24,796 nt of DNA from a virus, in IMG/VR virus record IMGVR_UViG_3300036832_000082, positions 1-24,796 of that record, one strand, 5' to 3'. The stretch's first letter is position 1. Every line of letters starts with the position of its first letter. The translations under genes and the position numbers were made by a program. Shown piece by piece: positions 512 through 24,200 of the stretch. Under the pieces are notes generated by a model. The model was not told the DNA's origin. It ran no database searches and saw only the letters and a program-made list of their open reading frames with translations.

Positions 512-571
512 GGCGCCCCGAAACTCTCATACTAGTCTAAAAAATGAGACATACTATCAGCATTTCTGGCC
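512..571. repeat. Dyad element copy 1
   Basis: It starts with GGCGCCCCGAAAC, has the centre GTCTAAAAAATGAGAC (535-550) and ends in ATACTATCAGCATTTCTGGCC. The right half, reverse complemented, matches the left half (GGCC/GGCGCC, then AAA, then CTGATAGTATGTCTC). It lies upstream of the HAF-repeat gene. Confidence 0.8.
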
Positions 572-667
572 ATCAATCAGATCCAGCCTCTTTGGAATTA
601 CCAATTGAATACTATCGGGTTCTGAGAGAAGATAGTAGCATAAGAGTGGACTGGGGTGGATTATCAA

Positions 668-2074
668 ATGCCTGTTATTGGTGCTCCTTACAGTGCGAAT
701 AGTTGGATTTGGTTAGATCCTGAACAATCAGGAAGTGTTTGGGTCATTGGTTCCTGGAGAGGACTGGTTCCATACGGGCATGTTGTCTTCCAAACTATAG
801 TGTTTGGATCTGGAACTATCAGAGGTGGACTCATCTTTCCATTCTCTCTTCTCAACTCCTTCGCACAAGTCCTGTATACATCCACTAATCCAGTTGTTTT
901 GAATATCAATAAGAATGATGATCTGATTGGAACGATCAACTTCGCTCCTGGATCTCATGATGGGACTTTCTCTTTCTCTAAAGATGTGCAGTTTCTCCCA
1001 GGAGATTTTCTGACAATAACTTCTACTGGAACTAGAGATCCAACCTTTTCTGACTTCTCTTGGAACTTACAAGGCATACCTGTTAGTAGCGATCCTGGTG
1101 GTTGGCCTAGTGGATACACTGCTCTTCCTCAGCCAACTGGGAAGAGTATTTTTGTGAATGGGGTTTCAGGAGATGGATTGGTTATAGTTGGAGCAGTTTA
1201 TTATGATGAAGTTGCTCAGAATGGGCACGCTTGTTATTGGACTCAGGATGGTGGATTGGTAGATATCGGATTGCTGCCCGGAGGGGTTGATGGTATGGCT
1301 CTTGATGCTAATCAAGACGGGAGTGTGATTATAGGTTGGTCTACTGATGGGACTGGACTTACTCATTCCTTCCGATGGACTAAGAGTAGTGGAGGAATGA
1401 TTGATCTAGGACTTTTGAGTGGGTATAATCAACTCCTTGCTAGAGCAATCTCTGGGGATGGGAATATCATAGTTGGAACTGCTAGAGGTGGCAGTTCGTT
1501 CACTTCAATCAAGTGGACTTCAGGAGTTACAGGTTTTGTAGATCTTGGTAAGCTTCCTGGTCATTCCTACAGTCAAGCATATGGAATTTCCTCTGATGGT
1601 CAGGTAATAGTAGGAGAGTCTGCAACAGCTGTAGGTGCGAATACTACTCCCTACCAATGGAAAGCTGGTAGTATGAGTGCTCTAACTCTTCTTGCTGGAG
1701 ATACTAGAGGAAGTGCTGGAGACTGTTCTTCGGATGGTTCGATAATTGCTGGAACTACTAATAGTAGTGTATTCAGATGGACTCTTTCAGGAGGAATGGT
1801 TGCTATTTCTCTTCCTGCTGGAAATACTGGACGTGGAGAGTCTGGTATGACAGATGATGGCTCCAACATAGTTGGAATTGTTCTTATGTCCACTCAACAG
1901 AGTATATATCACTGGACTGCTGGAGTTGGAGCAGGAAGTAGTGTTTTGATACCAAATGTCCCTGGTGGGAATACTCATGATGCGTATAATGGAGTTATCA
2001 GTAAGAATGGTTCAGTTATAGCTGTAGATGTTCAGAGTAGTCCTCAGAATACTGGATGGGTTTATGGTCTCTAG
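668..2074 (+). CDS. HAF-repeat (beta-propeller-like) putative virion surface protein
   Basis: The 468-residue product starts at the ATG at 668, preceded by GGGGTGG eight bases upstream. A GTG at 656 would add four residues and cannot be excluded. Residues 1 to about 145 form a beta-rich domain with a GDFLTITSTGTRDPTFSDFSWNL-like stretch of the kind seen in phage tail and fibre proteins. The rest consists of about seven repeats of some 45 residues, each with an [S/D]DG.[V/I]I[V/A]G core (GDGLVIVG, QDGSVIIG, GDGNIIVG, SDGQVIVG, SDGSIIAG, DDGSNIVG, KNGSVIAV) and a W[T]..G.(M/L)..L strand. This is the HAF extracellular repeat pattern, which probably folds as a beta-propeller. There is no signal peptide, so a virion-borne receptor-binding or surface-binding role is more likely than secretion. 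That role is an inference from the next gene, a polysaccharide hydrolase. Confidence 0.75.
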   Translation: MPVIGAPYSANSWIWLDPEQSGSVWVIGSWRGLVPYGHVVFQTIVFGSGTIRGGLIFPFSLLNSFAQVLYTSTNPVVLNINKNDDLIGTINFAPGSHDGTFSFSKDVQFLPGDFLTITSTGTRDPTFSDFSWNLQGIPVSSDPGGWPSGYTALPQPTGKSIFVNGVSGDGLVIVGAVYYDEVAQNGHACYWTQDGGLVDIGLLPGGVDGMALDANQDGSVIIGWSTDGTGLTHSFRWTKSSGGMIDLGLLSGYNQLLARAISGDGNIIVGTARGGSSFTSIKWTSGVTGFVDLGKLPGHSYSQAYGISSDGQVIVGESATAVGANTTPYQWKAGSMSALTLLAGDTRGSAGDCSSDGSIIAGTTNSSVFRWTLSGGMVAISLPAGNTGRGESGMTDDGSNIVGIVLMSTQQSIYHWTAGVGAGSSVLIPNVPGGNTHDAYNGVISKNGSVIAVDVQSSPQNTGWVYGL

Positions 2075-2264
2075 TTCTCTAATTACCGGGGCTTCCGCGA
2101 GGCCGAAACTTGAGAGGCCGAGCGCCCGATATGGGCAGCGAGCCTATATATAAGATATCTCTAATTACTAGACAAAGGACCAACTGTTCTCGGCCCGGAT
2201 CTTCTATACCTATCGCCCCTCATACCTATCAGCTTTTTTGGCGCCAAACTAAGGAACTCTCTAA
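2075..2264. other. GC-rich intergenic region between the HAF and GH5 genes
   Basis: This 190-base gap is far richer in GC and CpG than its flanks. TCTCTAATTAC occurs at 2076-2086 and again at 2158-2168. In between are two GAGGCCGA words (2099 and 2115 area) and a small GCCC-GATAT-GGGC hairpin (2124-2136). The right end is a dyad element (2192-2245) and the Shine-Dalgarno of the next gene, AAGGA at 2251-2255. No T-tract follows the hairpin, so it is not a standard terminator. Confidence 0.6.
2192..2245. repeat. Dyad element copy 2 (degenerate centre)
   Basis: The left end is GGCCCGG and the right half reads CTCATACCTATCAG, then TTTTTT, then GGCGCC. Reverse complemented, the right half is GGCGCCAAAAAA, G, CTGATAGGTATGAG, very close to the family half-site. 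The left half has drifted. It lies 20 bases upstream of the GH5 start. Confidence 0.65.
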
Positions 2265-3665
2265 ATGGTTGATCAAATCACTCAGAACTTCATCAATGAT
2301 CTCGCCTCAGTTCATATCTATGTCCAACCTGCTCCCACACCAACTCCAGCACCAACTCAACCTCCTGTTGCTCAAGAGAGTCCTGATGGAACTACTGTTC
2401 TAGTTGGGAGTAATACTATTATCACGGACTCACATGCAATGGTTTGGACCATCAGTTCTACTGGAGTCATACTCAAGAATGGTCAACCAGATAATACTAC
2501 TCAGAATGTCATCAAACTCTACTACAAGACTCATGAAGTATATCAAGAGAACTCTTCAAATCTTTGGTGGGTTTGGAGAAACAACTCTTGGGTGTCAGTA
2601 AGTGATCCAACAGTTTCTGGAACTGGGAAGTTCAAGATTGCTAGTGGGAAGATCTATCAACCAAACGGGAAAGAGTTCATTGCTCGTGGGATCAATGTCA
2701 ACGATTGGCAGATTAATACAGTCGTTACGAATGATGCTTGTGAGCCTCTTCTCAAATCCTTCCCACGACTAAATTGTATTCGTCTCAACTGTGGTAACTA
2801 TCCAACGAATACGAGTCAATATGAACCGGCTCTTACTCGTCTGATCAACAAAGGTATTCTTGTTTGGTTCGATGATCATACTGGTATCAGTAAGCCTCCT
2901 TATACTGGGGCTGCTCTAACTAAAGAAGTCGAATGGTTCAAGATGGTTGCCAAAGCATATGCGTATACTCCATATGTTTGGATCAATGGTTTCAATGAAC
3001 CAAGTGATGGGAAAAATCTCCCTGGAGTTACAGATCAGCAAGTTGCTATCTACAATGGTGTTCATCTTGTTTCTCCAGACGTATTCGTCGTCATGGAAGA
3101 ACCTTGTGGTGGCAATCCTGGTCTAGTTGGTATCAAAGGTCGTGGGTATGATGGTTCTGGGCCGATGCCATCAGCAGCATACGCACAGATGAAGAATATC
3201 ATATGGAGTCCTCACTTCTATGGATGGAGTTGCAACTATAGCAATGATCGAGCAACTGTTGCAGCAGCACTCAAAGGAAGTGTTGATAGTGCTAGTGGTA
3301 TTGCTGCTGCTCAATCTATTACTAGTGTTGATAACCCTGTTCCAGTTATCATTGGAGAGTTCGGGGATAGCACTACTGGTGATGCTATTGACTCCAATGG
3401 CACTCTTGTTGTTGATGTAGTTGGAACAAGTGGGTATGGATTTCTAGCTTGGCATTGGAGAGCATCTACTAATCCAGGAGATAAACTCACTGTTGATGAC
3501 TCTGGGACTCTTACTCCTTATGGTCAACAAGTCAGAGATCTGATCTTGAGAGCAGCTGCAATTGAGGATGGACAACTTTCAGGAACAGCGACAACTTATG
3601 AAGTTGAAGTAGAGGTAGTTGAAGAAGTCATTGAGATTGAGACAGAAGATGGATCTCAATCCTGA
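2265..3665 (+). CDS. Glycoside hydrolase family 5 (cellulase-like) virion depolymerase
   Basis: The 466-residue protein starts at ATG 2265, nine bases after AAGGA. Domains in order: a short N-terminus (1-20) that could anchor to the virion; a Pro/Thr linker (21-34); a small carbohydrate-binding-type module (about 38-115, ending NLWWVWRNNSWV); a GH5 catalytic barrel (about 121-430); and an acidic VEVEVVEEV tail. Key residues visible are NEP with the putative acid/base Glu245, SPHFYGW with His317 and Tyr319, and IGEFG with the putative nucleophile Glu365. GH5 enzymes cut beta-1,4 and related glucans or mannans by a retaining mechanism. With no signal peptide and a place in the virion cluster, it probably degrades host exopolysaccharide or cellulose during adsorption. 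The exact substrate cannot be told from sequence. Confidence 0.85.
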   Translation: MVDQITQNFINDLASVHIYVQPAPTPTPAPTQPPVAQESPDGTTVLVGSNTIITDSHAMVWTISSTGVILKNGQPDNTTQNVIKLYYKTHEVYQENSSNLWWVWRNNSWVSVSDPTVSGTGKFKIASGKIYQPNGKEFIARGINVNDWQINTVVTNDACEPLLKSFPRLNCIRLNCGNYPTNTSQYEPALTRLINKGILVWFDDHTGISKPPYTGAALTKEVEWFKMVAKAYAYTPYVWINGFNEPSDGKNLPGVTDQQVAIYNGVHLVSPDVFVVMEEPCGGNPGLVGIKGRGYDGSGPMPSAAYAQMKNIIWSPHFYGWSCNYSNDRATVAAALKGSVDSASGIAAAQSITSVDNPVPVIIGEFGDSTTGDAIDSNGTLVVDVVGTSGYGFLAWHWRASTNPGDKLTVDDSGTLTPYGQQVRDLILRAAAIEDGQLSGTATTYEVEVEVVEEVIEIETEDGSQS

Positions 3666-3891: not shown

Positions 3892-3912
3892 TTAGTTGGT
3901 TGGCTATTGAGA

Positions 3913-3972
3913 CCGCCCACAACCTTATAGGTATGTCTCAAAAAAGAGACACTAGCAGGAGTAAAAATCGCC
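3913..3972. repeat. Dyad element copy 3
   Basis: The centre is a perfect hairpin GTCTC-AAAAAA-GAGAC (3935-3950). It is flanked by ATAGGTAT on the left and ACTAGCAGGAGTAAAAATCG on the right; the outer arms are worn (CGCC at both ends instead of GGCGCC). Its right arm carries the AGGAG that probably serves as Shine-Dalgarno for the gene at 3973. Confidence 0.75.
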
Positions 3973-4587
3973 ATGTCTAAGAAATTTCTCTCACTAACAA
4001 CTGCTCTTATCTTTGGTCTTTCCACACTACGAGCAGATGCTGGACAAGCTATCATTGCTGTTCAACCTACTAATACTCCTCCTGTTAATGTTCCTAGTGA
4101 TCCAAATGCTCAACCATATTTTAATACTGGAACTGCATTTACATATATTACAACTCCACCTATATCTTTATCTGCATATGCTTCTGGTAACTGTGTAGGA
4201 GGTGCTCAAGCAGTTGCTGGAGCTAGTAGATTTTCTTCTAGTGGTGTAGCAACTGCTCCTAAAAGTTTGTGGATTACTAGTATTCAGATTATTGATAGAT
4301 CCATTCAGAATATCCCTATTGATTTGGTGGTTTTTGATAATAATAATGGATTATATACAGATAATACTCCTTGTAATATCAATGCTGCTGATACTGGTAA
4401 AATAATTGCTGTTTTTCATATTACTGATTGGTCAACAGCTGGATATGGATTGGCATTTTATAATGCTAATTTTCATATTTTAAGTGTTGCTCCTAGTGGG
4501 AATTTATATATTATTGCTGTAGCTAGAGGAGCAGCTACTTATACTGCTTTGGCACTTACTTTTAAGTATTCTATTATTCAAGATTGA
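3973..4587 (+). CDS. Signal-peptide-bearing phage beta-protein, paralogue 1
   Basis: This 204-residue protein begins with a typical Sec signal peptide: MSKK, the hydrophobic run FLSLTTALIFGLSTL, then RADA before GQA, with likely cleavage near residue 23. The mature part is beta-rich: SGNCVGGAQ, KSLWITSIQIIDRS, PIDLVVFDNN, TDNTPCNI, KIIAVFHITDWS, LYIIAVARGAATYT, and a terminal FKYSIIQD. Proteins with this order of strands (L.S....D......DL..FD......TDN......D....I..........GN.Y...VARG..TYT) occur next to capsid genes in many phages, as I recall usually without signal peptides. Two conserved Cys residues suit an oxidising compartment. It has a closely related neighbour downstream. Export to the periplasm or surface is predicted; function is unknown. 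Confidence 0.7.
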   Translation: MSKKFLSLTTALIFGLSTLRADAGQAIIAVQPTNTPPVNVPSDPNAQPYFNTGTAFTYITTPPISLSAYASGNCVGGAQAVAGASRFSSSGVATAPKSLWITSIQIIDRSIQNIPIDLVVFDNNNGLYTDNTPCNINAADTGKIIAVFHITDWSTAGYGLAFYNANFHILSVAPSGNLYIIAVARGAATYTALALTFKYSIIQD

Positions 4588-4603: not shown

Positions 4604-5227
4604 ATGATTAAGAAGTTTTTGTTATCAACAGTAGCTTTTGGCTTTCTCACTTTACTTTCTCCTACTTCTATCCAAGCTGAGCAAGCTATCATAGCTGTTC
4701 AACCACCAACTACTTCTCCAGTAAATGTTCCAAGTGATGCAAATGCTCAGCCATATATAAATACTGGAACAGGAATAGTTTTTCTTAATGCTCCAACTAT
4801 ATCAGCTGCTACTTATACATCTGGTAACTGTGTAGGAGGTAGTCAGAGTATAACTACTGCCAGTAGATTTGGTTCTGCTGGTGGAGTTGGAACTGCTCCA
4901 AAGAGTGGATGGTTGACTAGTATTGAAGTCATAGATAAAGCATCTCAGACTGTTCCGTTGGATATAATTCTTTATGATAATACTCCTGCTACATATACAG
5001 ATAATACTCCTTGTGCTGTTCAAACTGGAGATGCTAATAGAGTAATTGGTGTTTTTCATCTTACAGATTGGACATTAGTTGGATACAGTCTTGGCACTAT
5101 TCTTACTAATTTTCATTATACAAGTGCTGCTCCATCAGGTCAAATATATGCTGTAATTATAGCAAGAGGAACTCCTACTTATACTGCTAATTCTCTTAGT
5201 TTCAGATATTCTCTTATTCAAGATTAG
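4604..5227 (+). CDS. Signal-peptide-bearing phage beta-protein, paralogue 2
   Basis: At 207 residues, this is a tandem duplicate of the preceding gene, with roughly half the residues identical by eye across the whole mature region. It keeps VQP..T.PVNVPSD.NAQPY.NTGT, SGNCVGG, PKS.W.TSI, YTDNTPC and the SLIQD/SIIQD end. Its own signal peptide, MIKKFLLSTVAFGFLTLLSPTSIQA, differs in detail but has the same plan. A very strong purine-rich ribosome site (AAGGAAGGAGAAGGA, 4588-4601 area) precedes ATG 4604, so it may be made in large amounts. Only 16 bases separate it from its paralogue, so both are probably on one transcript. A secreted or envelope role is inferred from the signal peptide, not from any known homologue. 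Confidence 0.7.
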   Translation: MIKKFLLSTVAFGFLTLLSPTSIQAEQAIIAVQPPTTSPVNVPSDANAQPYINTGTGIVFLNAPTISAATYTSGNCVGGSQSITTASRFGSAGGVGTAPKSGWLTSIEVIDKASQTVPLDIILYDNTPATYTDNTPCAVQTGDANRVIGVFHLTDWTLVGYSLGTILTNFHYTSAAPSGQIYAVIIARGTPTYTANSLSFRYSLIQD

Positions 5228-5376: not shown

Positions 5377-5380
5377 AAGA

Positions 5381-5686: not shown

Positions 5687-6100
5687 ATGACTACTCGTGT
5701 TACAATTGAAGTTTCTGGTAACCCAGTCAAGCTTGTTACCAGTGCTGATAATGCTTCTACTCCACAGGAGCCGATAGTTACTGAAACTCTTCTTACTCCT
5801 GGACAGCCTCATGTTCTTTATGTCTATCCTGGATATTCTATTACTGAACTCATTGAGGTGGAGCAAGTCAAAGTAGTTGCTCCACCTCCAGCTGCTAGTG
5901 GTATTGATATTGGGACAAATCCTAGTGGAGGAGCCGCTTTGGCTCCTAGTAAAGAAGCTGTGGGTGGGACTCCGGAACCAACTCCTACTCCTGAGCCATC
6001 TCCAACTCCTGTTCCTACTCCAACTCCGGAACCTACTAAGACTCCTGCTCCTCATTCATCTTCTTCCTCAAGTTCTAGTTCGAACAAACCCTCAAGATAG
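5687..6100 (+). CDS. Pro/Thr/Ser-rich low-complexity phage protein
   Basis: This 137-residue protein starts at ATG 5687, after AAGGGAG and AGGAA sites. Residues 1 to about 60 form a compact beta-rich domain (MTTRVTIEVSGNPVKLVTS, then HVLYVYPGYSITELIEVEQ). The remainder is an extended linker: an Ala/Pro/Gly part, a PEPTPTPEPSPTPVPTPTPEP repeat, and a run of nine Ser before NKPSR. Small phage proteins with the same N-terminal type are common in structural regions, and the tail would be disordered and highly exposed. A decoration or fibre-linking role is possible. The gene ends two bases before the next dyad element. Family assignment is not certain. Confidence 0.6.
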   Translation: MTTRVTIEVSGNPVKLVTSADNASTPQEPIVTETLLTPGQPHVLYVYPGYSITELIEVEQVKVVAPPPAASGIDIGTNPSGGAALAPSKEAVGGTPEPTPTPEPSPTPVPTPTPEPTKTPAPHSSSSSSSSSNKPSR

Positions 6101-6101
6101 G

Positions 6102-6163
6102 TGGCCCGAAAGTCTCATACTACGTCTCAAAAAAGAGAATACTAACAGACTTTTAGGGGCCCC
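6102..6163. repeat. Dyad element copy 4
   Basis: The left arm is TGGCCCGAAAGTCTCATACTAC, the centre TCTC-AAAAAA-GAGA (6125-6138), and the right arm ATACTAACAGACTTTTAGGGG then CCCC. The right arm, reverse complemented, begins GGGGCCCCTAAAAGTCTG and matches the left arm well. AGGGG (6155-6159) lies nine bases before ATG 6169, so the arm itself supplies that gene's ribosome site. Confidence 0.85.
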
Positions 6164-6168
6164 AAACA

Positions 6169-7000: not shown

Positions 7001-7190
7001 AGATGAGATTGATGTAGAGGAGATTATACTGCCAGAGGAATTGAAGAGAGAATTGGAAGAAGAGAGAAGAAGGAAGATTGTTATCAATGAATTGAGGAAT
7101 AAGGATAATAGATTTGCTAATGAGAGATTGAATAGGATCAGAGAGCAACTAGAGAAGAAGAGATTAGAAGGATCGGAGAATGACTCTTAG
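6945..7190 (+). CDS. Charged coiled-coil protein between the terminase genes
   Basis: This 81-residue frame overlaps the end of the small terminase gene by 56 bases from ATG 6945 (AGGAAA upstream). An internal ATG at 6978 would shorten the overlap to 23 bases. Its stop lies inside the first codons of the large terminase gene (11-base overlap). The protein is almost entirely charged helix: EEIILPEELKRELEEERRRKI, then RFANERLNRIREQLEKKRLE. Overlap at both ends suggests translational coupling of three packaging genes. It could assist terminase assembly; no family is recognised. Confidence 0.55.
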   Translation: MSKFVTIYQKVMERRKSLRDEIDVEEIILPEELKRELEEERRRKIVINELRNKDNRFANERLNRIREQLEKKRLEGSENDS

Positions 7191-8808
7191 AGAAGATATT
7201 GGGTTCTATGATGATACTCTAGCTCTTTCTAGGAAAGATGCTACTAAAGAGTCAATTTTGCGCTCCGAAGAGCAGATACTACGTCTCAAAAATGAGATAC
7301 TAACAGAAAGTTCAGGCGCCGAATTAGAGTCCGATCCAGAGATAACTAGTGGGAATTTTGACAGACTCCAAATCATAGAAGCTTGTAAAATTGATCTCAA
7401 CTTCTTCGCTGCTATTTCTATTCCAGATACATTTGTTTATCCATTCCCAGCTACTCATATTACTGCTTGGCAGATACTTATAGATGGAGAACAAGATAGT
7501 GAGCACAAATTCTTACAATTTGCTATTGGTATTCCAAGAGGACACGCAAAAACTACACTTCTTAAACTCTTCGTTCTTAGATGTATTCTCTTCACAAATA
7601 GAAGCTTTTTCCTTATTACCTGTTCAACAGAACAGCATGCAATTAACTTCATCTCTGATATCGAACTTATGCTCAACAACTCGAACATCAAAGCAATCTT
7701 CGGAGATTGGAGACTAGGACTGGAGACGAATACTAGAGGTTTCAAGAAATTCGGTTTCAATGGTCGGAGTATTACTATCTTTGGTATCGGAGCAGAAGGT
7801 TCTGTTCGTGGTATTAATGTTGGTAACTCACGACCAGATGTTATTGTTATGGATGATATTCAGACTAAAGAATGTGCAGACTCTATTCTCATGAGTAAAG
7901 CACTTCTTGAGTGGATGGTTGGGACTCTTATGAAGGCTAAGAGTCCAAAGGGTTGTATGTTCATCTTTGCAGGGAATATGTTTGCTGCTAGAGGTAGTAT
8001 TCTTAGGCAGTTGAAAACTAATCCTACTTGGATCAAGTTCATTTCTGGAGCTATTCTTGCGGATGGTAGAGCTCTTTGGCCAGAACATCGTTCATTAGAG
8101 AGTTTGATTGAGGAACTCAATAATGATATTGCTATGGGTCAGGCTCATATCTTCTTCTCAGAAGTCCTTAATGATACCAATGCTGGGATCAATTCTACAG
8201 TCGATTATAGTAAATTCCCTATTTGGCCTTGGAGTAAAGAAGATCTTCCACAAGGAAAATTCCTTCTCATAGATCCTTCTCAAGGTAAGGGGAAGGATGC
8301 AGATGTTATTGTTACTGTTGAAGTCTACGACTCGAAAGTTGGGATCAGAGCAGTTCATGAGGATTACTATTCTCCGGCGAATTTGATCAGGAAAGCTCTG
8401 ATTATAGCTATTCAGTCTGAGATATATTGTATAGCTATCGAAGCAATGGCTTATCAAAGCACTCTCATTTTTTGGTTTGAACAAATCTGTCAGGATATTG
8501 GCATCAGTGGAATATCTTTTGTTCCTATCTACACGAATTCCTACTCCAAGAACTCTCGTATCTCTAGTGCAATCAAAGCAATGCAGACTCGGGAGATATA
8601 TCTTCATGACTCTATCAGAAGTGTTGTTCAGAGACAGATAGCAGATTGGAACCCTTTGAAGAGGGATAACAAAGATGATATTCTTGATGCTATTAGTAAT
8701 GCTCCAAAAGTTGTGGCCGAATATACTTATGATATTATGTGTAAGAGTAATCTCTTAGTTCTTGAAGCCAACAAGGCTGAAGTAGTGGAATTTAATAGTT
8801 GTTTTTGA
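7180..8808 (+). CDS. terL: Terminase large subunit (packaging ATPase and nuclease)
   Basis: This 542-residue protein is of normal length for the family. The ATPase domain has a Walker A-type loop GIPRGHAKTT (117-126) and Walker B VIVMDDI (221-227). The RNase H-like nuclease domain shows its acidic residues at Asp365 (FLLIDPSQGKGKDAD), Glu421 (AIEAMAYQ) and Asp500/Asp503 (KDDILDAISN). It cuts concatemers and drives DNA into the prohead through the portal. Start ATG 7180 overlaps the previous gene by 11 bases. Residues 28-47 are encoded by a dyad-element copy, an oddity placed before the ATPase core where it should be tolerated. Assignment is secure. Confidence 0.95.
   Translation: MTLREDIGFYDDTLALSRKDATKESILRSEEQILRLKNEILTESSGAELESDPEITSGNFDRLQIIEACKIDLNFFAAISIPDTFVYPFPATHITAWQILIDGEQDSEHKFLQFAIGIPRGHAKTTLLKLFVLRCILFTNRSFFLITCSTEQHAINFISDIELMLNNSNIKAIFGDWRLGLETNTRGFKKFGFNGRSITIFGIGAEGSVRGINVGNSRPDVIVMDDIQTKECADSILMSKALLEWMVGTLMKAKSPKGCMFIFAGNMFAARGSILRQLKTNPTWIKFISGAILADGRALWPEHRSLESLIEELNNDIAMGQAHIFFSEVLNDTNAGINSTVDYSKFPIWPWSKEDLPQGKFLLIDPSQGKGKDADVIVTVEVYDSKVGIRAVHEDYYSPANLIRKALIIAIQSEIYCIAIEAMAYQSTLIFWFEQICQDIGISGISFVPIYTNSYSKNSRISSAIKAMQTREIYLHDSIRSVVQRQIADWNPLKRDNKDDILDAISNAPKVVAEYTYDIMCKSNLLVLEANKAEVVEFNSCF
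7260..7320. repeat. Dyad element copy 5, inside terL
   Basis: The left arm is GCGCTCCGAAG, followed by CAGATACTAC. The centre TCTCA-AAAA-TGAGA (7284-7297) is followed by ATACTAACAGAAAGTTCAGG and CGCC. It is read in frame as terminase residues 28-47, with the core split as cGT-CTC. Confidence 0.85.
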
Positions 8809-8836
8809 TTAACTGGATCTAATTGATGCACTGAGT

Positions 8837-8886
8837 GTCTCATACTATGAGACAAAATCAAGGGGATAGTATCGAGATGTCAGGCG
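8837..8886. repeat. Dyad element copy 6, at the portal gene start
   Basis: A perfect palindrome, GTCTCATA-C-TATGAGAC (8837-8853), is followed by GATAGTATCGAGATGTCA and GGCGC (8882-8886). The same 17 bases recur at 15783-15799. The right arm runs into the first codons of the portal gene; the left GC arm is missing. Confidence 0.75.
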
Positions 8887-10991
8887 CTCAAACAGTAACT
8901 CCTTTTCAACCTCCTCCAGGTCTTAGAAATAGACCTCCTGTTGGTTCTACTTCTACTGCTCAGGATACTGGAACAAATGCCTCTTCTACTATCATAATTC
9001 CTGTAAATACTGAGCAACAGACTCAGATAATTCGATCTATAACTGCTTGGCAGAATTCTCAATATACTCAATACTCTCTTCGGACTGAGATGGAGAATAT
9101 TGATCGGATATACATGAGAGAGAAGGATTGGACTGAGGATCAGGTTAAGAGTAGACTTGCTAATAGAAAAGGTGACTCTAGGCAGATCCAGAATGTTACT
9201 GTTCCTATTGTTATGCCTCAAGTCAATTCTTGTCTTACTTATCTATCTGATGTCTATCTAACTGGATATCCAATCTTTCCGGTAGTAGCTGATCCATCTA
9301 ATGAAGATGCTGCTCTTCAGCTGGAGACAATTATCCAGGAGAATGCTGTTACTGCTGGTTGGGCTCATCAACTTGGAATGTTCTTTCGAGATGGTCTGAA
9401 GTATAATCTTCATGCGATTGAGTGTGATTGGAAACAGAGAGCTAATTGGACTGTTCAGAACGATTTGAGTAAAGCAAATAATGCTGGAGCCAGAAAGATA
9501 CTATGGGAAGGGAATGTTCTCAAGAGGATGGATTTGTATAATACTTTCTGGGACCCAAGAGTTCATCCTTCAGAGGTTCATCTGGAAGGAGAATTCATTG
9601 GGTATACTGAAGTCTATTCTAGAATTCGTTTTAAGAAATACTGTAATAGTCTCTACAACATGGCTCCTAAGAGTGCAGTTATAGCTGCTCTTAACAGTCA
9701 ACCAATCCAGGGAGCTATTGGAGCTTCTACTACTGCTCCATTCGGATACTACATCCCAGCTGTAAATCCATATCCATTCTATAATAAGAGTGCGAATATG
9801 GACTGGTTGAATTGGGCTAGTAATACTCCTACTAGTAGAACAGGAGTTAACTATGTCAATGCTTACTCAATTACTACTGTGTATGCTAGAATTCTTCCTG
9901 ACGATTATGGTTTCACTGTTCCTGAGCGAAATACTCCTCAGGTATGGAAGTTTGTTATAGTCAACGGAGCAGTTGTCCTAACTGCAGAAAGACTCACGAA
10001 TATTCACAACTTCCTTCCTATCTTCGTTGGACAACCAATCGAGGATGGATTGGACTATCAGACTAAGAGTTTTGCTACTAATGTCGCAGATATGCAGGAT
10101 ATTTGTTCTGGTCTTTGGAATGGACATATCGCCTCTAAAAGGAGGCTAGTAGGAGATCGTGTTCTCTATGATCCTTCCAGAGTGAACCAGAGAGATATCA
10201 ACTCTGATAATCCTGCTGCTAAGATACCAGTCAGACCTAGTGCTTATGGGAAGCCAATGAGTGAAGCTGTTTATCAGTTTCCTTTCCGGGATGAACAAAC
10301 AGACTCCTTGGTCCAGAGTTCCAATCTGGTTGTTGCTATGGCCAATCTTATCAATGGTCAGAACCCTGCTCAACAGGGACAGTTTGTCAAAGGGAATAAG
10401 ACTAGACATGAGTATGCTGATGTTCAGGGTCATTCAAATGGTCAGAACCAGCAGATTGCATTGAGTATTGAGTATCAAGTTCTTGTTCCTATGAAGGAAG
10501 TTCTCAAACTTAATACTCTTCAGTATCAGGGCCCGAAAACTATCTACAACACTGGAAGAGGTAAGCAAGTTAATGTCAGCCCAGAGGATCTGAGGAAGAG
10601 TGCTGTTCACTTCAAAGTAGCAGATGGTCTCATACCTACTGATAAGATAACTGGGGATGATTTGCTGCAAACAGTTATTCAACAATTTGGATCCAGCCCT
10701 CAACTTGCGGCCGGATACAATATAGCAGACGCTTTTACTTACCTAATGAAAACTCAAGGTTTGGATCTTACTCCTTTCGCTAAGAGCCAAGCGCAACTCC
10801 AATATGAACAAGCTATTCAAGCTTGGCAACAAGCAGCACAAGAAGCTGCTAAAGCTGGAGCTCCTTTCTCTAGTCCACAACCACAACCAAGTCCTGCTCT
10901 TCAACAAGAGATGCAACAGAAACAACAAGGTATGGGTGGAACTAGCAATTCTACTCCTACTACAGCAGCATTGGAAGCAACTCAATCATGA
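8877..10991 (+). CDS. Portal protein
   Basis: From ATG 8877 the product has 704 residues; a GTG at 8835 in the same frame would add 14 residues but would read through the palindrome. AAGGGG (8860-8865) lies eleven bases before ATG 8877. After a Pro-rich N-terminus the body is mixed helix and strand (RMDLYNTFWDPRVHPSEVHLEGEFIGYTEVYSRIRFKKY; IWNGHIASKRRLVGDRVLYDP-like region), followed by a long helical part. It ends in a Gln/Ala-rich coiled tail (QQAAQEAAKAGAP, QQEMQQKQQ). Length and position directly after the large terminase match large podovirus portals, the dodecameric channel for DNA entry and exit and for tail attachment. I rely on context and overall resemblance more than on a diagnostic motif. 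Confidence 0.8.
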   Translation: MSGAQTVTPFQPPPGLRNRPPVGSTSTAQDTGTNASSTIIIPVNTEQQTQIIRSITAWQNSQYTQYSLRTEMENIDRIYMREKDWTEDQVKSRLANRKGDSRQIQNVTVPIVMPQVNSCLTYLSDVYLTGYPIFPVVADPSNEDAALQLETIIQENAVTAGWAHQLGMFFRDGLKYNLHAIECDWKQRANWTVQNDLSKANNAGARKILWEGNVLKRMDLYNTFWDPRVHPSEVHLEGEFIGYTEVYSRIRFKKYCNSLYNMAPKSAVIAALNSQPIQGAIGASTTAPFGYYIPAVNPYPFYNKSANMDWLNWASNTPTSRTGVNYVNAYSITTVYARILPDDYGFTVPERNTPQVWKFVIVNGAVVLTAERLTNIHNFLPIFVGQPIEDGLDYQTKSFATNVADMQDICSGLWNGHIASKRRLVGDRVLYDPSRVNQRDINSDNPAAKIPVRPSAYGKPMSEAVYQFPFRDEQTDSLVQSSNLVVAMANLINGQNPAQQGQFVKGNKTRHEYADVQGHSNGQNQQIALSIEYQVLVPMKEVLKLNTLQYQGPKTIYNTGRGKQVNVSPEDLRKSAVHFKVADGLIPTDKITGDDLLQTVIQQFGSSPQLAAGYNIADAFTYLMKTQGLDLTPFAKSQAQLQYEQAIQAWQQAAQEAAKAGAPFSSPQPQPSPALQQEMQQKQQGMGGTSNSTPTTAALEATQS

Positions 10992-11269
10992 GTAGTAGAA
11001 TAGAAGAACTTGTCAAGGATATTAACATAAACTTCCATAAGCGTGAATTCTCTTCTACTAGAGATGAACATCTTAGTAAAGTTCTCTCTCCACTTCAGAG
11101 ATTTGGTTTGGAAAATTTACTAGTTGAACTGATTGAAGAGAAACTTGGATCAGCAGTTGGAACTGAGAATTATATGTATACTCAAGAATACCTCAGAGGT
11201 CAGATAGAGCTTGTGAAATATCTTCTTGCTCTTGATGACGCTGCTAGAGCCGACCAACCGGGTCTATAG
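10988..11269 (+). CDS. Small head-region protein after the portal
   Basis: This 93-residue frame begins in an ATGA overlap with the portal stop, so translation is probably coupled. It is helical and charged: MSSRIEELVKDININFHKREF, then SPLQRFGLENLLVELIEEKLGSAVG, and EYLRGQIELVKYLLALDDAARAD. No membrane segment or motif is evident. Small helical proteins at this place occur in many podoviruses between portal and scaffold. Function is unknown. The gene stops four bases before the hairpin of dyad element copy 7. Confidence 0.65.
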   Translation: MSSRIEELVKDININFHKREFSSTRDEHLSKVLSPLQRFGLENLLVELIEEKLGSAVGTENYMYTQEYLRGQIELVKYLLALDDAARADQPGL

Positions 11270-11310
11270 TTTGTCTCAAAAAAGAGAATACATATACAAC
11301 TTTTGGGCCG
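11256..11310. repeat. Dyad element copy 7
   Basis: The centre is TCTC-AAAAAA-GAGA (11274-11287). The right arm is ATACATATACAACTTTTGGG then CCG; the left arm is worn (CAACCGGGTCTATAGTTTG). Its left part overlaps the last codons of the preceding gene. Confidence 0.75.
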
Positions 11311-11337
11311 CAAATCAGATAAGAAAGGACTAAACAA

Positions 11338-12220: not shown

Positions 12221-12919
12221 ATGACTGCGTTTAGGATGACTGGACTCAGGGGTATTATGGGTGAAGCCATTAGTCCTGGGGATAGTGTTCTCTCTGGGGA
12301 CTTGACAGCTTCAGTTCCAACAGTTGGTTCTACTACTCTCACAGCTGCGCAGATTGTTAGTGGGAATATCTTCAGATCCGGATCTGGAGCCGGGTATACT
12401 GATACTTTCGATACCACTGGAAATGTTCTTAATGCACTAGGAGGAAATCTTCCTGGGGGTGCTATCGTCAACGGATTGAGTCTCAAGCTTCGGATTGTAA
12501 ACACTGTTGCTTTTGCTGAAACTATTACTCTTCCAAATGGATATGTTACTGGACTAGGAACAGTAGCATCTGTTGCTGCTTCCACTTGGAGAGACTTTCT
12601 CCTTACTTTCACCAACACTCAACCTCCAGTTAGTAACGTCTGCAATACTACTAGTGGTTCAGCAGTTGTTACTTGGAACCTTCCTGTAGGACAGCCTGTT
12701 CAGCCTATTGGTGTGAGTCCTCTTGCTATTAACATCATGCCTGGTTGTTCAGTTAGTGGACCCGGTGTTCCTGCTAATACAACAGTTCTTTCTGTTCAAC
12801 AAGGTCAGGGTGGAAGTGTTGGATTTACTATGAGTGCCAATGCTACTATTACTGGCATTGCTGCTCTTACCTTCCAGCCTGTTATTACTGTCAACAGTTT
12901 GGGCTCCGGACCTCTATAA
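12221..12919 (+). CDS. Beta-rich head decoration-like protein
   Basis: The 232-residue product starts at ATG 12221, with AAAAGGA eight bases away. After a short N-terminus it shows TLTAAQIVSGNIFRSGSGAGYTDTFDTTGNVLNAL, then GAIVNGLSLKLRIVNTVAFAETITLPNG. This beta-sandwich pattern (AAQ...G...R......DT.......A.......G........N......ETITL..G) is common in small phage structural proteins encoded beside capsid genes. The second half (ITVNSL end, GCSVSGPGVPANTTVLSV) is a further beta domain. It lies directly before the major capsid gene. A decoration or stabilising protein is the best guess; a tail component is possible. Confidence 0.6.
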   Translation: MTAFRMTGLRGIMGEAISPGDSVLSGDLTASVPTVGSTTLTAAQIVSGNIFRSGSGAGYTDTFDTTGNVLNALGGNLPGGAIVNGLSLKLRIVNTVAFAETITLPNGYVTGLGTVASVAASTWRDFLLTFTNTQPPVSNVCNTTSGSAVVTWNLPVGQPVQPIGVSPLAINIMPGCSVSGPGVPANTTVLSVQQGQGGSVGFTMSANATITGIAALTFQPVITVNSLGSGPL

Positions 12920-12960
12920 GTTTGTCTCAAAAAAGAGAATACTTATAGACTTTTTCGGCC
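12905..12960. repeat. Dyad element copy 8
   Basis: The centre is TCTC-AAAAAA-GAGA (12925-12938). CTATAAGT (12914-12921) pairs with ACTTATAG (12941-12948), giving a long, almost continuous stem. The right arm continues ACTTTTTCGGCC; the left arm begins TCCGGACC and overlaps the end of the preceding gene. It lies 29 bases before the capsid start. Confidence 0.85.
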
Positions 12961-12989
12961 ACCAATCAGAAGCAAAGTGAGAACTCTCC

Positions 12990-14213: not shown

Positions 14214-14235
14214 AAGGATCAAAGACCAACTATTT

Positions 14236-14299
14236 GGGCGCCGAATTTCTTGATACTATGTCTCAAAAATGAGAATACCTATTAAGAATTCCGGCGCTC
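14236..14299. repeat. Dyad element copy 9, the most symmetric copy
   Basis: A 64-base imperfect palindrome centred at 14267.5. It starts GGGCGCCGAATTTCTTGATA, has the centre TCTCA-AAAA-TGAGA (14261-14274), and ends TTAAGAATTCCGGCGCTC. About two thirds of the 32 positions pair without gaps, and more if one base is allowed to bulge near TATG. It lies between the capsid gene and the next. Confidence 0.9.
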
Positions 14300-14332
14300 A
14301 ACAAATCTCTTACCAGAAGGAATTTCTCTCAA

Positions 14333-15056: not shown

Positions 15057-15734
15057 ATGAACCTCCAGGAATTAATCTCAGCTGTTTATACTGAAACTGC
15101 TAGACCAGACTTGGTAGATGAAACTCTACAAGCAGTTCTTGAAGCTACTTTGAGTGTTCATACTTGTGAGCAGTTTCCTAAGGATATTGTAGAAGCAACT
15201 GTTACTTTTGATGATCCTCTTCTTCATGTCCAAACTCTAGACACTGGAGCTCTTCCTAACTATCGGAGTATTGCATACATTAGGAAGATGGACCCTGGTA
15301 TCAATTCTGTTCAACTCACTGGGAATGTTCTTCCAAATCAGAATACCTATCGTTCTACTCAATTCAATTTTCTCAAAAGAGTTGATATTGGAGATATTGT
15401 AGATAGATATGGATATGAGAAAACAGATGTTTGGTATCAAGCAGGAAATCTGATCAACATCAAGAGCACTACTGCTCTAGCATATGTAACTGCTGCTTGG
15501 TATCAGTATCCAACTCTTGATCCAACTGGAGTTAATTTTGTCAGTTGGGTAGCAAATGAGAGTCCTTGGTGTATTGTCTACAAAGCCTCTGGACAAGTAT
15601 TCTCTAAGATCGGAGAAGATAAGAGTGCTGCTCTGTATCTCAGACAACCTACTCCTGGTCAGAGTGAAGATACTGGTGGATCTTTTTACCAACAACTTGC
15701 TATTCTGAAGAGAAATAATATTCTACTTGGATGA
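15057..15734 (+). CDS. Head-tail adaptor or tail tubular A-like protein
   Basis: I place the start at ATG 15057, with GGAG nine bases upstream, giving 225 residues; a start at 14985 would lie inside the previous gene and lacks a site. The N-terminus MNLQELISAVYTETARPDLVDETLQAVLEATLSVHTCEQFPKDI is a helical bundle typical of adaptor proteins, with ETARPDL..ETLQAVL..TL recurring in phage proteins at this position. The rest is beta-rich: TLDTGALPNYRSIAYIRK, DIGDIVDRYGYEKTDVWYQAGNLINIKS. Adaptors of this type sit below the portal and join it to the tail. The call rests on the N-terminal pattern and the gene order. Confidence 0.65.
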   Translation: MNLQELISAVYTETARPDLVDETLQAVLEATLSVHTCEQFPKDIVEATVTFDDPLLHVQTLDTGALPNYRSIAYIRKMDPGINSVQLTGNVLPNQNTYRSTQFNFLKRVDIGDIVDRYGYEKTDVWYQAGNLINIKSTTALAYVTAAWYQYPTLDPTGVNFVSWVANESPWCIVYKASGQVFSKIGEDKSAALYLRQPTPGQSEDTGGSFYQQLAILKRNNILLG

Positions 15735-15746
15735 GGATTTTGATTG

Positions 15747-15810
15747 CCGGCCTGAGACATTACATACTATCCATGTTTGCATGTCTCATACTATGAGACT
15801 CCGGAGCACC
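15747..15810. repeat. Dyad element copy 10
   Basis: CCGGCCTGAGACATTACATA is followed by CTATCCATGTTTGCAT, then a perfect palindrome GTCTCATACTATGAGAC (15783-15799) identical to that at the portal start, then TCCGGAGCACC. The GGAG at 15803-15806 is nine bases before ATG 15816 and is its likely ribosome site. Confidence 0.75.
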
Positions 15811-15815
15811 AATCA

Positions 15816-17366
15816 ATGGCTAATCAATTTATCAGACTCAATCTAGCTAGTGCTATCTTCCCGTTCTATACGGAAGCTGCTGGCAGAACTATCATAATGC
15901 CTGCGATAGATGAGAATTTTGATCGGTATAATGCTGCGAACACTACTCCTGATAAAGGAGTTCCACAAGTATTCTACATGCACAATTGTATGCCTATCTC
16001 TGGAGGTTTTCAAAGCATCAGTTACGATCAAGCTATTCCTGCTTATGCAACTCCAGCTACTGATTTTGATACTTGTTTCTCTCTAGTATCCTCTCACTTC
16101 AATCCTTATCTATTCGTTCCTGCTAGAGGTAAGAACTACATCTTTGATGGGAACAACAATGCTTGGACATCTACTAATCCATTTACTCCAGGAAGTGTTC
16201 CTCCGAATTGCTTAGTAACTACAGCCTTCATTAAAGGAATAACTTATATCTACTATGCTGGTATAGGTTGTTATCAATACAACGATGCTACTGCAACTTT
16301 CTCTCCAATAACTCTTACTGGTCTGATAGCTACTGATATCCTTGGTATCTGTGAAGCCAATGGATATATGATTGCTTTCAGTGCTGCTGCTATTGCTTGG
16401 TCGTCGATCTCCAATCCTACTGATTTTGTTCCTAATATTCAAACAGGTGCTGGTGGTGGTGCTATTCAAGAAGCTAAAGGTAAGATCAACTTCTGTGTTC
16501 ATCTAGCTGGAGGTTTTCTTATCTACTGTGAGAGGAATATAGTTGGAGCTTCTTATACTGCCAATACTGCTTTTCCTTATATCATCGTAGAAGTCAAAGG
16601 TTCTGGAGGAGTTGATAGTATTGATAAGGTAGCTTATCAAGGCAATCTCTCATATATGGTTGCTATGACTACTGCTGGACTTCAGCAGATTTCTCTTGAC
16701 TCCGCTATTCCTACTATGCCAGAAGTTAGTGATTTTCTCACAGCTAAAGTATTTGAGGACTTTGATGAGACAACTGCTAGTTTCAGTATGCAATATCCTA
16801 CTACTGCATTGTCTATTAAATTATCTTCTGTGAGTAATAAATTCATAGTCATCTCCTATGGACTTGCTGCTCCTGATTTTACTCATGCAATTATCTTTGA
16901 TATTGGTCTCAATAGATATGGGAAAGTAAAAATCAATCATAGATGTGCATTTGTTTTTATTGATCCTGGTCCTGGAGTATTTGGTGCTGTTAGAGCTAAA
17001 GAAAATCTTGCGTTTCTTCAGAAGGATGGGAAAGTCCAACTAGCGAATTTTAATATCTCAACAGCTAATTCTGATGGAGTTTTTATCTTAGGAAAACTTC
17101 AATTCTCCAGACAGAATGTTATTATTCATCAGACTACTGATGTAGAGAGTGTTCATCCAGAAAGAAATGATTTTGAGTTACTTCTTCTTCCAACCTTTAA
17201 TGGTAAGGATTTTGATACAGCTGTTCCTACTGTTCCAATCAGATCAGGAAGATTGGTGAATACTTTTGCTAAGAGATTTACTGCTATCAATCTTTCTCTA
17301 TGTTGCATAGGAGCTTTCAATCTTACTTCTTTGATTACTAATTTCACTATCGGAGGAAATAGATGA
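15816..17366 (+). CDS. Tail protein, tail tubular B-like (beta-propeller)
   Basis: The start is ATG 15816, which gives 516 residues; an upstream TTG at 15777 would run through the palindrome. The protein is beta-rich with repeated propeller-like strands (YLFVPARGKNYIFDGNNNAWTST, GITYIYYAGIGCYQYNDATATF, GYMIAFSAAAIAWSSISNPTDF, LAGGFLIYCERNIVGAS, NLSYMVAMTTAGLQQISLDSA). It starts MANQFIRLNLASAIFPFYTEAAGRTI. Size, position after the adaptor and the propeller pattern fit the tail tubular B or nozzle component of a short tail, through which DNA leaves. No diagnostic motif was available. Confidence 0.65.
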   Translation: MANQFIRLNLASAIFPFYTEAAGRTIIMPAIDENFDRYNAANTTPDKGVPQVFYMHNCMPISGGFQSISYDQAIPAYATPATDFDTCFSLVSSHFNPYLFVPARGKNYIFDGNNNAWTSTNPFTPGSVPPNCLVTTAFIKGITYIYYAGIGCYQYNDATATFSPITLTGLIATDILGICEANGYMIAFSAAAIAWSSISNPTDFVPNIQTGAGGGAIQEAKGKINFCVHLAGGFLIYCERNIVGASYTANTAFPYIIVEVKGSGGVDSIDKVAYQGNLSYMVAMTTAGLQQISLDSAIPTMPEVSDFLTAKVFEDFDETTASFSMQYPTTALSIKLSSVSNKFIVISYGLAAPDFTHAIIFDIGLNRYGKVKINHRCAFVFIDPGPGVFGAVRAKENLAFLQKDGKVQLANFNISTANSDGVFILGKLQFSRQNVIIHQTTDVESVHPERNDFELLLLPTFNGKDFDTAVPTVPIRSGRLVNTFAKRFTAINLSLCCIGAFNLTSLITNFTIGGNR

Positions 17367-18148: not shown

Positions 18149-19222
18149 ATGTCTGGTGATGTAACTGGAGTAGGAGCTATAATCAGTGCAGCTACTGATC
18201 TAGCCAAGTATGTGATTGGAGTTAATACTTCAACCAATACAAGTGGATTGACTGATACTAAGAGTAATGTTACAACAAAAGTTGCTGCTGATACTGATAC
18301 TACCCAGACAACAACTGGTAGAACTACAACTACTGGTCAGAGTATTACGGATACTACTAACACTCAGACTACTCAGAACTTCGCTGATCCAACTGTTATT
18401 GCTGCTCTCAAGCAGTTTGCTTCTACTGCTATCAGTAATTCAACTGATCCGAATAAGACCCAAGGACTTCTACAGGGAATTCTCCAAACAGCTGGAGATG
18501 CTATGACTAGTGTCTTTGGTCAACAATCCCAGTCTGGTATCTACAACTCCAGTGCTACTAGGTCTCAGAATGATAACATTCTAGCTAGAGCTTCTGCTAT
18601 GGCTTCTCAGGCAATTCTCGGATATCAGACTACTGAGCAAGGTCTAGCGAAAGATGCTCTCAGTCAACTAGCTACTTCTACTGCTGGAACTACTAGCACT
18701 CAGACCAGTAGGAGTGAGACTGATACTAGTAATATTGTTGATGTCAATCAAATCGTCAACACTGCTACTCATCAAGCAGCAACTACACAAGTAGCAGGAG
18801 AAACTAGTGGAGCTTCTACTTCTAATGTCAAGGGCAAGTCTGGAATGTCTGTTGTTTGCACTTGGATGTATCAGAGAGATCTACTAGATTGGAAAGAATA
18901 CTACATCTGTTCTGATGCACTAGCGAGAAAGCCTTGGTATCATGCTCGTGGTTATCAAACTATTGGTGGCCCGATGGTCTCATACCTAAACGCTTTCGAT
19001 ACTAACAACTTTGGTTCACGCCTCATACTATCAACCTTCCGGGCGCGTAGTAGTTATATTTGCTCCAAACTAGGATACAAAAAATACTCTCCTACTCTCA
19101 AGGGTTTCCTAGCAACTGCTCTGATTGCTTCTCTTACCTATCCATTCGCATCCTTCTATTACCTACTTTATCTCTTAGGTATGAAAAATCCATACTATCA
19201 AGATCTCCAGGCCGCGAACTAA
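18149..19222 (+). CDS. Putative ejected or tail-interior protein, Ser/Thr-rich, with dyad element inside
   Basis: This 357-residue protein starts at ATG 18149, nine bases after AGGAG. Residues 1-225 are very rich in Thr, Ser, Gln and Asn, with few charges (TTQTTTGRTTTTGQSITDTT; TSTAGTTSTQTSRSETDTSN) and helical pieces between. From about 233 it changes to an aromatic, Cys-containing domain (VCTWMYQRDLLDWKEYYICSD, PWYHARGYQTIGGP). Near 325-345 a hydrophobic helix follows (FLATALIASLTYPFASFYYLLYLL). Residues 274-300 are encoded by a dyad-element copy. Phages of this layout place one or two internal virion proteins just before the giant one, so ejection with the DNA is a reasonable guess. No family is firmly recognised. 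Confidence 0.6.
   Translation: MSGDVTGVGAIISAATDLAKYVIGVNTSTNTSGLTDTKSNVTTKVAADTDTTQTTTGRTTTTGQSITDTTNTQTTQNFADPTVIAALKQFASTAISNSTDPNKTQGLLQGILQTAGDAMTSVFGQQSQSGIYNSSATRSQNDNILARASAMASQAILGYQTTEQGLAKDALSQLATSTAGTTSTQTSRSETDTSNIVDVNQIVNTATHQAATTQVAGETSGASTSNVKGKSGMSVVCTWMYQRDLLDWKEYYICSDALARKPWYHARGYQTIGGPMVSYLNAFDTNNFGSRLILSTFRARSSYICSKLGYKKYSPTLKGFLATALIASLTYPFASFYYLLYLLGMKNPYYQDLQAAN
18968..19047. repeat. Dyad element copy 11, long variant inside a gene
   Basis: The left arm is GGCCCGATGGTCTCATACCT. Then come a GATACTAACAACTTTGGTT segment and a second half, CCTCATACTATCAACCTTCC followed by GGGCGCG. It is about 20 bases longer than other copies and lacks the A6 hairpin. It is read in frame, with the core split GTC-TCA. 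Confidence 0.6.
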
Positions 19223-21205: not shown

Positions 21206-21221
21206 ATAGAGGAACTAGAAG

Positions 21222-24200
21222 ATGGCTGATGATGAGTTTCTTAATCCAACAAATCCTTTAGGTATTGCTGGTGCTGGAGGAATTGGAACTGGATCTCGTT
21301 TTAGTTCGGGCGCCGAAACTCCTGATAGTATGTCTCAAAATTTAGACACTACCAGCCCGATCAGGCCGTCATCATATGCAGATAGAGTTTCTAATACTCT
21401 GACTGGTGCATCTTTAGATGCTCAGGCTCAAGGTTCCAAACCTATTTCAGATATCGCATATGATCTAGTAACCAAAGCTGCTCCTCTTACTGGTGCAGCA
21501 GTTGTTAACTCCTTCTACAACACAGCAGTAGAAATAGGAAACTTCCTTGGTGGAGATTTCCACAAGGCTACTATCGAAGATGAATTCGGACCAAGTTCTG
21601 AAACTACTGCTTACTATCAACAACATGCTGGTCCAATAGAAGGAGCAGCTTTAGCTATAGGATCTCTTGCTCCAGGTCTCGGAGCAATCAAAGTTCTCAA
21701 ACTCGCACAAGCTGGGAAGTTTGGGAATGCTATGAAGATAACTACTGGTCTAGCTTCTGGTATTCAAGATGCTGCAATCAAAGCAGCCGCTGATGATATG
21801 GTTGGGAATGCTACTGGAGCTAGTCTGTTTGGACTCTCTTCAGTTAACAAGACTAAAGCTATTCTCGCTGGTATCGGAGATCAGGCTCTCCAAGGAGTTG
21901 CATATCAGACTGCTACTCTAGCTACTATGCACGCTAGTCCGATAACAGATGCGAATACATTTGGGGATAATCTTTCTGATGTCTTTGATGCGGCCAAAGG
22001 ATTTGCAGTAGTTGGAGGTTTGATAGAAGGGGCTTCTTCTATTTATAAGATCAACAAAGCTATCAAAGCAGCAGACTTGAGCACTAAACAACAAGAAGCT
22101 TTTGGTCTCCTAGGAAAAGGTAACTACACTCCTGGGGATCGAGTAGTTAAAGCTTATGAGACTCTGGATCAGATACCTGCTCCAACTAATACTCTTGGAC
22201 AGCAGAAACTCAACATAACGACTCATACTACTAATCGAGAGATCCAGAAGATCCTAATCGGAGCAGCTGGTGGGGATGAAGAAGTTGCTGGGACTTTTAG
22301 GAACTTCCTTGAGAAAGGAAGAAAGGATGGTTCCATAGGTCCAGAGGAACTTCAGAATAATCTCGGTCAGATGTCTAGAATTGGAAGATATGATGATATT
22401 GGAGTAGTCTCTACTCCTAGTGATGTTTTCTATATTCCTTCTAAGATTGATCCTGCTGGTATTTCTACTTCTACTCATGATGATCTTATGTTTCGAGACT
22501 CTCATTCAGATTTTGACACTCAAGTATCCAGAGCTATGACTCTGACAAATCCAACTCAACTTCCAACTATCGGGCGCGCCACAGACCGATTGGTATTGAG
22601 CCCGTTAGGTATGCAAACTTCCGGCGTCACAGCACAAAAATATGCTGGAGTTCTTGATGCTTATAAGCAAGGAGTTGATATCTTCATCTCTTCTGATGGT
22701 AAGACTCATATCAATCCATCTTCTGGAACTTTCAAAGAAGTTGCTCGTCCTGGAGAAAGTAGAGTTCTTTCAGTAGCAGAAAGAGCAGAATATGAAAAGA
22801 CTGGAAATCTTCCTAAGGACTCTAAACCTTTGGAGTCTGTAGGAACTATTCTTGATACTGCTACTGGTAAACTCTTTGATGCAGCAAGTCCTCCACTTCC
22901 AGTAGTCGGAGATATTGGTAAGCCAAATCTTACTAATCAAGGTCTCATGGTTGGGAAACAAGTATTCCCTCAGAAAGCTGGATCAGAATTCGATCCTCTT
23001 TCAGTTACTCCTCTTGATGCTAATGCTCGATACGTTTGGGCTTCTCTCAGAGGGATTAAGAACTCTGACTCTATAGCATCAAACGATCTTCCTATGCTAG
23101 AGCAAATGTATAGAGAAAAAGCCGCAGGTTTTGAGCATGAGAATATACCTGTTTTTAATGACGGTTCTAGCGTTCCTTCTACTGCTGGAGATCTTCTCGA
23201 TCATATTTCCCAGTTAAAACAAGCAGCATATGGAGATCTGTTGAGTCAAGGAAAGAATACTGATGAGATTGGTCGGATACTTAACTCTCCGACTAGTGGA
23301 ATGACTAAGAACTTTAATTCCTTAGATCCAGCAGATCTGATAACTGATCCTGCTCTTAATGCAAACACTCGTCATATTCGTCTAGCTTATGATATTGGAA
23401 CTACTAAGGACTCTGAAGGAAATCTTCTTAGAGGTCTACAGAATACTAATTATCGAGTTAAGTTAGCAAGAGATACTAACTCTGATACTGTATCCAATTA
23501 CCTCTCCACAATCTCAGGAGGTTCTCAACAAAGAGCTCAGGAACTCTTCTCTAGACTCCAATTCACTAAAGGTGCTGGAGATGCAGATATCTTAGGCGCA
23601 GGAAGTTCTTTCCTACGAAATGCGAACTCTGACTTTGGAACTATTGGTCAACAATCCGAACGGATGGGTAGAGCAGTTTCTGAGATTGGAACTCAAAGAA
23701 CTTCAGTAGTAGCAGATACTCTAGCTAGTCCAACTAATTCCTTACGAAGAGATCCTGCTCTAGCAGCAGAGTATGGGAATTTCGTAGCAGTCAGGAGAAT
23801 GACTGGAGAACATTATGTTCTTCTCTCAGATGTAGATGCAGCAGCAAATAAACTGCCGCCCAACACTGCTATACTAGAGGGGGCTGTTAAGAAAGATCCG
23901 AAAACTGGAGCAGTTACTATTGATAGAACATACCTACCAAATGGTTTTGTATCTGGTGATACAGATATGCAAGGGTTCTTTGGAACTACTCAGAGGAATG
24001 TTCTCAAATCCTATTACACTCTTTCCCCTGAAGTAGTAGCAGTAGAACGAGCTTCTCAGGGTTTGAACAATATTCGTAACTCTCTTAGATCAGATTGGTG
24101 GAAATCTCAGGGAATAAACAAAGAAGCTCCTAATCCTGATCGTCTTTACACTCCTCCGATAGATGGAAGTAAGTATCCATTCTTTGCTTATGTTCGCCAG

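Follow-up and report, generated by a model that had tools for sequence, protein, structure and literature searches.

PeSL cassettes of T4-type phages, reportedly described by Arbiol in 2010, are repeated stem-loops lying between genes that are said to aid shuffling; PeSLs carry early promoters. REP elements are short dispersed palindromes that occur in many copies, some of them within replication and repair genes (PMC3733652). Rickettsia palindromic elements (RPE) are also palindromic and dispersed, and are found as in-frame insertions in protein genes (PMC10969869). The GC clusters of yeast mitochondria are short palindromes too, housed in a compact and AT-rich genome; they show presence/absence polymorphism, merging and shuffling, with the mobiliser unresolved, and a putative target-site duplication and a constraint on the palindrome have been reported for them (PMC4478555).

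The family described here consists of imperfect palindromes of ~70 bp in a 24.8-kb IMG/VR record, called the window below. Like REP elements these are short dispersed palindromes in many copies, but they are longer, their aligned arms carry neither a GTAG nor a CGTC tag consistently at the stem base, and no RAYT tyrosine transposase was found among the ~30 phage ORFs scanned. With RPE they share a dispersed, palindromic nature and an in-frame position in ORFs (a 15-aa insertion in a helicase, and four copies in one frame), whereas RPE, compared by description only, measure ~150 bp and belong to Rickettsia genomes, and half of the phage copies lie in gene gaps. The GC clusters differ in belonging to an organelle, and their target-site duplication and palindrome constraint were not seen in the phage copies generally. 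Unlike PeSLs, the phage palindromes include intragenic copies, and the clear ones have no promoter match to the sigma-70 type, which may not be that of the host. As the family works like REP elements, RPE and GC clusters but fails on tag, size or host features, it was assigned to none of them and is best read as analogous to all three. A literature search of limited reach found no described phage family of such palindromes; the sequence-only reading that had preceded this analysis knew of no phage element with this sequence.

The window is from a podovirus-like phage and codes for terminase, portal and major capsid proteins (PHROG 38, 15554 and 1328); its portal is 30-35% identical to the closest annotated relatives, those of EBPR podovirus 3, Polaromonas phage Tiera and the PaP2/119X group. 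A sequence near-identical to the whole window lies inside a contig of 48,518 bp (IMGVR_UViG_3300036791_000092, hereafter G001), with differences almost confined to 10343-11433 and one mismatch over the remaining shared sequence. The left-arm genes of G001 are on the + strand and the replication genes mostly on the - strand, and a Pfam scan of ~30 ORFs revealed a recombination and replication set of PD-(D/E)XK nuclease, AAA ATPase, helicase and family A polymerase. The helicase is divided between two ORFs (38758-39735 and 39811-41169, both -); the expected conserved segment is still encoded in the 75-nt gap, but in a different frame, which makes a change of frame likely, whether real, programmed or a sequencing error. 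Other features observed were a GH5 cellulase-type phage protein with a proline-rich N-terminal repeat (window 2265-3665; Pfam PF00150, E 7e-16), two tandem duplicated genes for ~205-aa proteins with 71-77% identical blocks and signal-peptide-like starts (window 3973-4587 and 4604-5227), and a second hairpin set near the contig ends, CTAGC- and GATAGGT-rich, that is possibly another repeat family (window 318-404; G001 47334-48091).

Copies were found by folding the 13 places listed in the sequence-only reading, by whose positions they are named here, and by searching for the core TCTCAAAAANGAGA. Eight of these places (512, 3913, 6102, 7260, 11256, 12905, 14236 and 21308) clearly belong to the family and four hold rearranged or degenerate copies (2192, 8837, 15747 and 18968), while 22572 received no support from the profile model. 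The consensus has the core GTCTC-AAAAAN-GAGA, flanks ATACTA/TAGTAT and outer arms of GGCGCC/GGCC type, the centre being written as the hairpin GTCTC-AAAAAN-GAGAC. The proposed plan of inverted arms around an A-rich centre stood, but this core describes the copies better than the exact half-site CTGATAGTATGTCTC, which few of them have (that at 21308 does). With five additions from G001, 13 core-bearing copies were obtained from the two contigs, scoring 26-62 bits with the family profile (38-62 bits for the eight window copies) against a maximum of 5.8 bits in 194 kb of shuffled sequence. Since the core-bearing copies themselves served to train this profile, independent support comes from the two copies on a third contig, L007, and from the absence of the family elsewhere. 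Rearranged copies 8825 and 15740 have GTCTCATACTATGAGAC in common, with a similar copy at G001 27208; degenerate copies are at window 2185 and 18962 and at G001 33515.

Two compositional claims of the earlier reading were borne out. All five GGCGCC hexamers of the window lie within a listed copy, with 0.46 expected in shuffles, and the CpG observed/expected ratio is 1.00 in the copies against 0.38 across the G001 genome. This strong depletion spans the whole G001 contig, with the palindromes exempt.

Table 1. Palindrome copies by position (window coordinates unless marked G001).
Feature	Position	Strand	Context and support
Clear copy	508..578	+	Upstream of first left-arm gene (656); profile 37.9 bits, E 2e-10
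Degenerate copy	2185..2250	+	Between gene ending 2074 and gene starting 2265; missed by profile; sequence, fold; outer arms and two ATACCTATC words, A-rich core absent
Clear copy	3906..3972	+	Fills 81-nt gap before gene 3973; 42.8 bits
Clear copy	6096..6167	+	Fills 68-nt gap before gene 6169; 62.2 bits; hairpin -24.9 kcal/mol, z -5
Clear copy	7254..7325	+	N-terminal coding part of terminase large subunit ORF (7180-8808); 46 bits
Rearranged (type 2) copy	8825..8893	+	Terminase-portal junction; GTCTCATACTATGAGACAAAA...GATAGTAT; same type at G001 27208-27280
Clear copy	11247..11316	+	Overlaps stop of gene 10988-11269; 51.2 bits; empty in L007, HNH-gene allele in G001
Clear copy	12896..12967	+	Overlaps stop of gene 12221-12919, upstream of major capsid gene; 58 bits; core/loop reversed in L007
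Clear, nearly perfect copy	14232..14302	+	Downstream of major capsid gene (12990-14213); 48.9 bits; -30.5 kcal/mol, z -7.5; conserved in L007
Rearranged copy	15740..15810	+	Between genes 14985-15734 and 15777-17366; shares GTCTCATACTATGAGAC with 8825-8893
Degenerate, expanded copy	18962..19050	+	Within ORF 18149-19222; sequence; weak half-site matches
Possible single half-site	19191..19220	+	3' end of ORF 18149-19222; half-site profile 9.7 bits, marginal
Clear copy	21303..21372	+	N-terminal coding part of large ORF starting 21222; 38.8 bits; encodes GAETPDSMSQNLDTTSP
Five further clear copies	G001 32740, 35725, 39002, 40878, 43946		Core-bearing

The family was found on three contigs only, the third of which, L007, is a 5.9-kb contig with a capsid protein 98% identical to that of the window. 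It was missing from relatives at about 70-86% capsid identity and from annotated phages, and a search of 2.9 million viral contigs and 84,980 bacterial and archaeal genomes found no family beyond chance core matches. The matches of the core to bacterial genomes and to other viral contigs were rejected as family members, being single and partial and about as numerous as expected by chance. When all fetched loci were scanned with the profile, none was found in relatives and only short core matches were seen, in contigs chosen by the core pattern. A search for additional carriers through the DNA polymerase returned G001 itself as the sole match. In L008, L032, L034, L035, L038, L061, L078 and L081 no dispersed family comparable to that of the window was recognised; the enriched words considered there as candidates were coding repeats, local repeats or single hairpins.

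The comparison of orthologous loci with and without a copy, which the sequence-only reading had suggested, brought out net insertions and one occupied/empty site. Measured as distances between aligned flanking genes, copy-bearing junctions in the window were usually about 35-65 nt longer than in relatives. The excess before the capsid gene was 42 to 44 nt against seven relatives and 27 to 30 nt against three more; against L008 the net difference was +66 nt at the TerS-TerL junction and +52 nt at the TerL-portal junction. After the capsid gene the window was longer by 36 to 48 nt than several relatives and by 14 to 16 nt than two, others carrying more DNA there. For the portal-g10988 junction, which has no copy, the difference was near zero for most relatives. 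The scaffold-g12221 and g15777-g17489 junctions were longer in the window too, without a recognised copy, so length alone is not specific. Relatives hold an extra 1.0-4.7 kb at the place of 15735-15776, between its two flanking genes, and the rearranged 15747 palindrome sits at this joint; such copies may mark old module joints.

Three sites were compared between the window and L007, the third being the 14236 copy treated below. The 11256 site holds a copy in the window and is empty in L007, with a net difference of +51 nt and no target-site duplication visible at this single occupied/empty site. G001 carries an L007-like allele there with an HNH endonuclease ORF. This ORF (G001 11247-11720, in place of window 11250-11433) is accompanied by a divergent flanking tract (window 10343-11433), which has the appearance of homing with co-conversion of the flanks. 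At the 12905 site the core reads GTCTCAAAAAAGAGA in the window and GTCTCATTTTTGAGA in L007, with flanks identical over ~100 nt and nine differing columns, all within 30; the change is a reversal of the core, or its conversion by a reversed core.

The claim that the palindromes stand at gene boundaries held in part. Gaps account for 9.2% of the G001 genome but hold six of its 12 core-bearing copies (p=3e-4); the other six lie within ORFs. Four intragenic copies (window 21308; G001 35765, 39042 and 40920) are read in one common frame, giving D/G-S/T-M/L-S-Q-K/N-x-D, from which the frame of the terminase copy differs. In the helicase ORF at G001 39811-41169 the copy is an in-frame insertion, coinciding with a gap of ~15 residues that follows the block IEIIQDIHS in relatives. 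At least 12 of 13 copies have the A-rich strand of their core as the sense strand (p=0.003); the thirteenth, G001 43946, has ORFs possible on both strands, so the count may be 13 of 13. This hints at a constraint at the RNA level or linked to replication, a point against the mobile reading given below.

Altogether, these observations suggested, and we consider it probable with some reserve, that the palindromes are a dispersed, non-autonomous, mobile-like repeat family private to one podovirus-like phage lineage, with a post-capsid copy that was probably exapted. A small mobile palindrome, one of several roles named in the sequence-only reading, thus emerged as the best supported, through lineage restriction, net insertions, the occupied/empty site and the in-frame intragenic copies. 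Against mobility, the sole occupied/empty site sits in the tract that differs between the window and G001 along with the HNH gene. Within one genome no pair of copies was alike enough to show recent transposition, and only short identical words were in common. Conservation of the core was well above that of the arms, in part by ascertainment, since copies were selected by their core; neutral decay alone would not give such a contrast.

A ~70-bp palindrome would have moved repeatedly into gene junctions and into coding segments that tolerate it in an open frame. A typical entry would have added about 35-65 nt net, and some entries would have replaced part of the target. Copies would then have diverged, with cores reversing or rearranging, as expected if hairpins mediate template switching or if arms or copies recombine. 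Among the ~30 ORFs scanned with Pfam, which included part of the small ones, there was no transposase, no RAYT and no other obvious mobiliser. The phage recombination and replication enzymes could copy or flip palindromes through template switching or strand annealing, and a RAYT-type mobiliser could be supplied in trans by the host. The majority of the copies look like tolerated passengers. A more specific version, which we put forward tentatively, is a selfish, protein-coding-compatible palindrome that proliferates in a compact phage genome, copying and flipping itself through the phage recombination and replication enzymes with no transposase of its own, and was the donor of the post-capsid regulatory hairpin.

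The 14236 copy stands apart. Between the window and L007 it differs in 1 of 69 columns, against 21 of 66 in the flanks, gap columns included (p=6e-7). In relatives the sequence after the capsid gene forms unrelated hairpins, with a median z of -2.9 there and of -0.9 upstream; those of L016 and L018 have T-tracts. The constraint and these unrelated hairpins together indicate that the copy probably serves as, or replaced, a conserved hairpin, and by this comparison of sequences it was probably exapted for a role that relatives supply with unrelated sequence.

An unlikely alternative is that all copies are RNA hairpins sharing one function at gene junctions, be it mRNA processing, stability or termination, on the model of the RNase III sites of T7-type phages. 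Several copies are indeed strong hairpins (z -3.5 to -7.6), the A-rich loop lies on the sense strand in 12 of 13, the post-capsid copy is under constraint, and alignment-based covariation was slightly above shuffles (65.0% paired against 60.4%, near-duplicate L007 rows included). However, copies 512, 11256 and 21308 folded hardly better than shuffled sequence (z about -1), about half of the copies are inside ORFs, and relatives lack the family. Compensatory covariation was rejected as proof of RNA structure, being apparent self-pairing: when arms were permuted among copies, own arms paired no better than arms of other copies (p about 0.13-0.6 over whole arms), and a signal in the middle arm segment (p 0.014) was gone once the two best copies were removed. 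Most copies therefore look like mirrored half-sites or decayed palindromes, and not like hairpins that were maintained. Additionally, clear copies did not match intrinsic terminators and had no T-tract after the arms, and Rfam gave 0 matches in the window at gathering score. The mRNA-processing role proposed earlier draws no general support from arm covariation, but the post-capsid copy looks functional.

Half-sites that mirror a common consensus more than each other, a conserved core and enrichment in gaps would also suit dyad-symmetric DNA sites bound by a regulator or RNA polymerase of the phage, which we regard as improbable. Copies deep within ORFs (G001 39042, 40920 and 33568) fit an operator poorly, and so do the 12905 core, rearranged with its loop reversed between unchanged flanks, and the placing of one copy per junction within one co-directional block, with none at the junctions of relatives. 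The promoter role also lost ground, as no sigma-70 promoter coincided with a clear copy, though this consensus may not be the promoter type of the host. Recombination linkers for module exchange at shared palindromes, to which copies at many gene joints, the position of 15747 where relatives carry 1-5 kb more and the sole recent exchange at a copy-bearing junction might point, are very improbable and a role left unsupported, as that exchange, around the HNH gene, runs across a copy instead of ending there and has its edges in coding DNA, and the copies have no more than short identical words in common.

Bacteria and organelles are known to contain small palindromic repeats, whose mode of spreading there is unresolved. 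As a mobile-like repeat family, the palindromes described here, about a dozen copies in a 48-kb phage, would offer a simple system in which to watch gain, loss and flipping. The same family would also show a selfish repeat turning regulatory, with one copy in place of the hairpin that relatives carry after the capsid gene.
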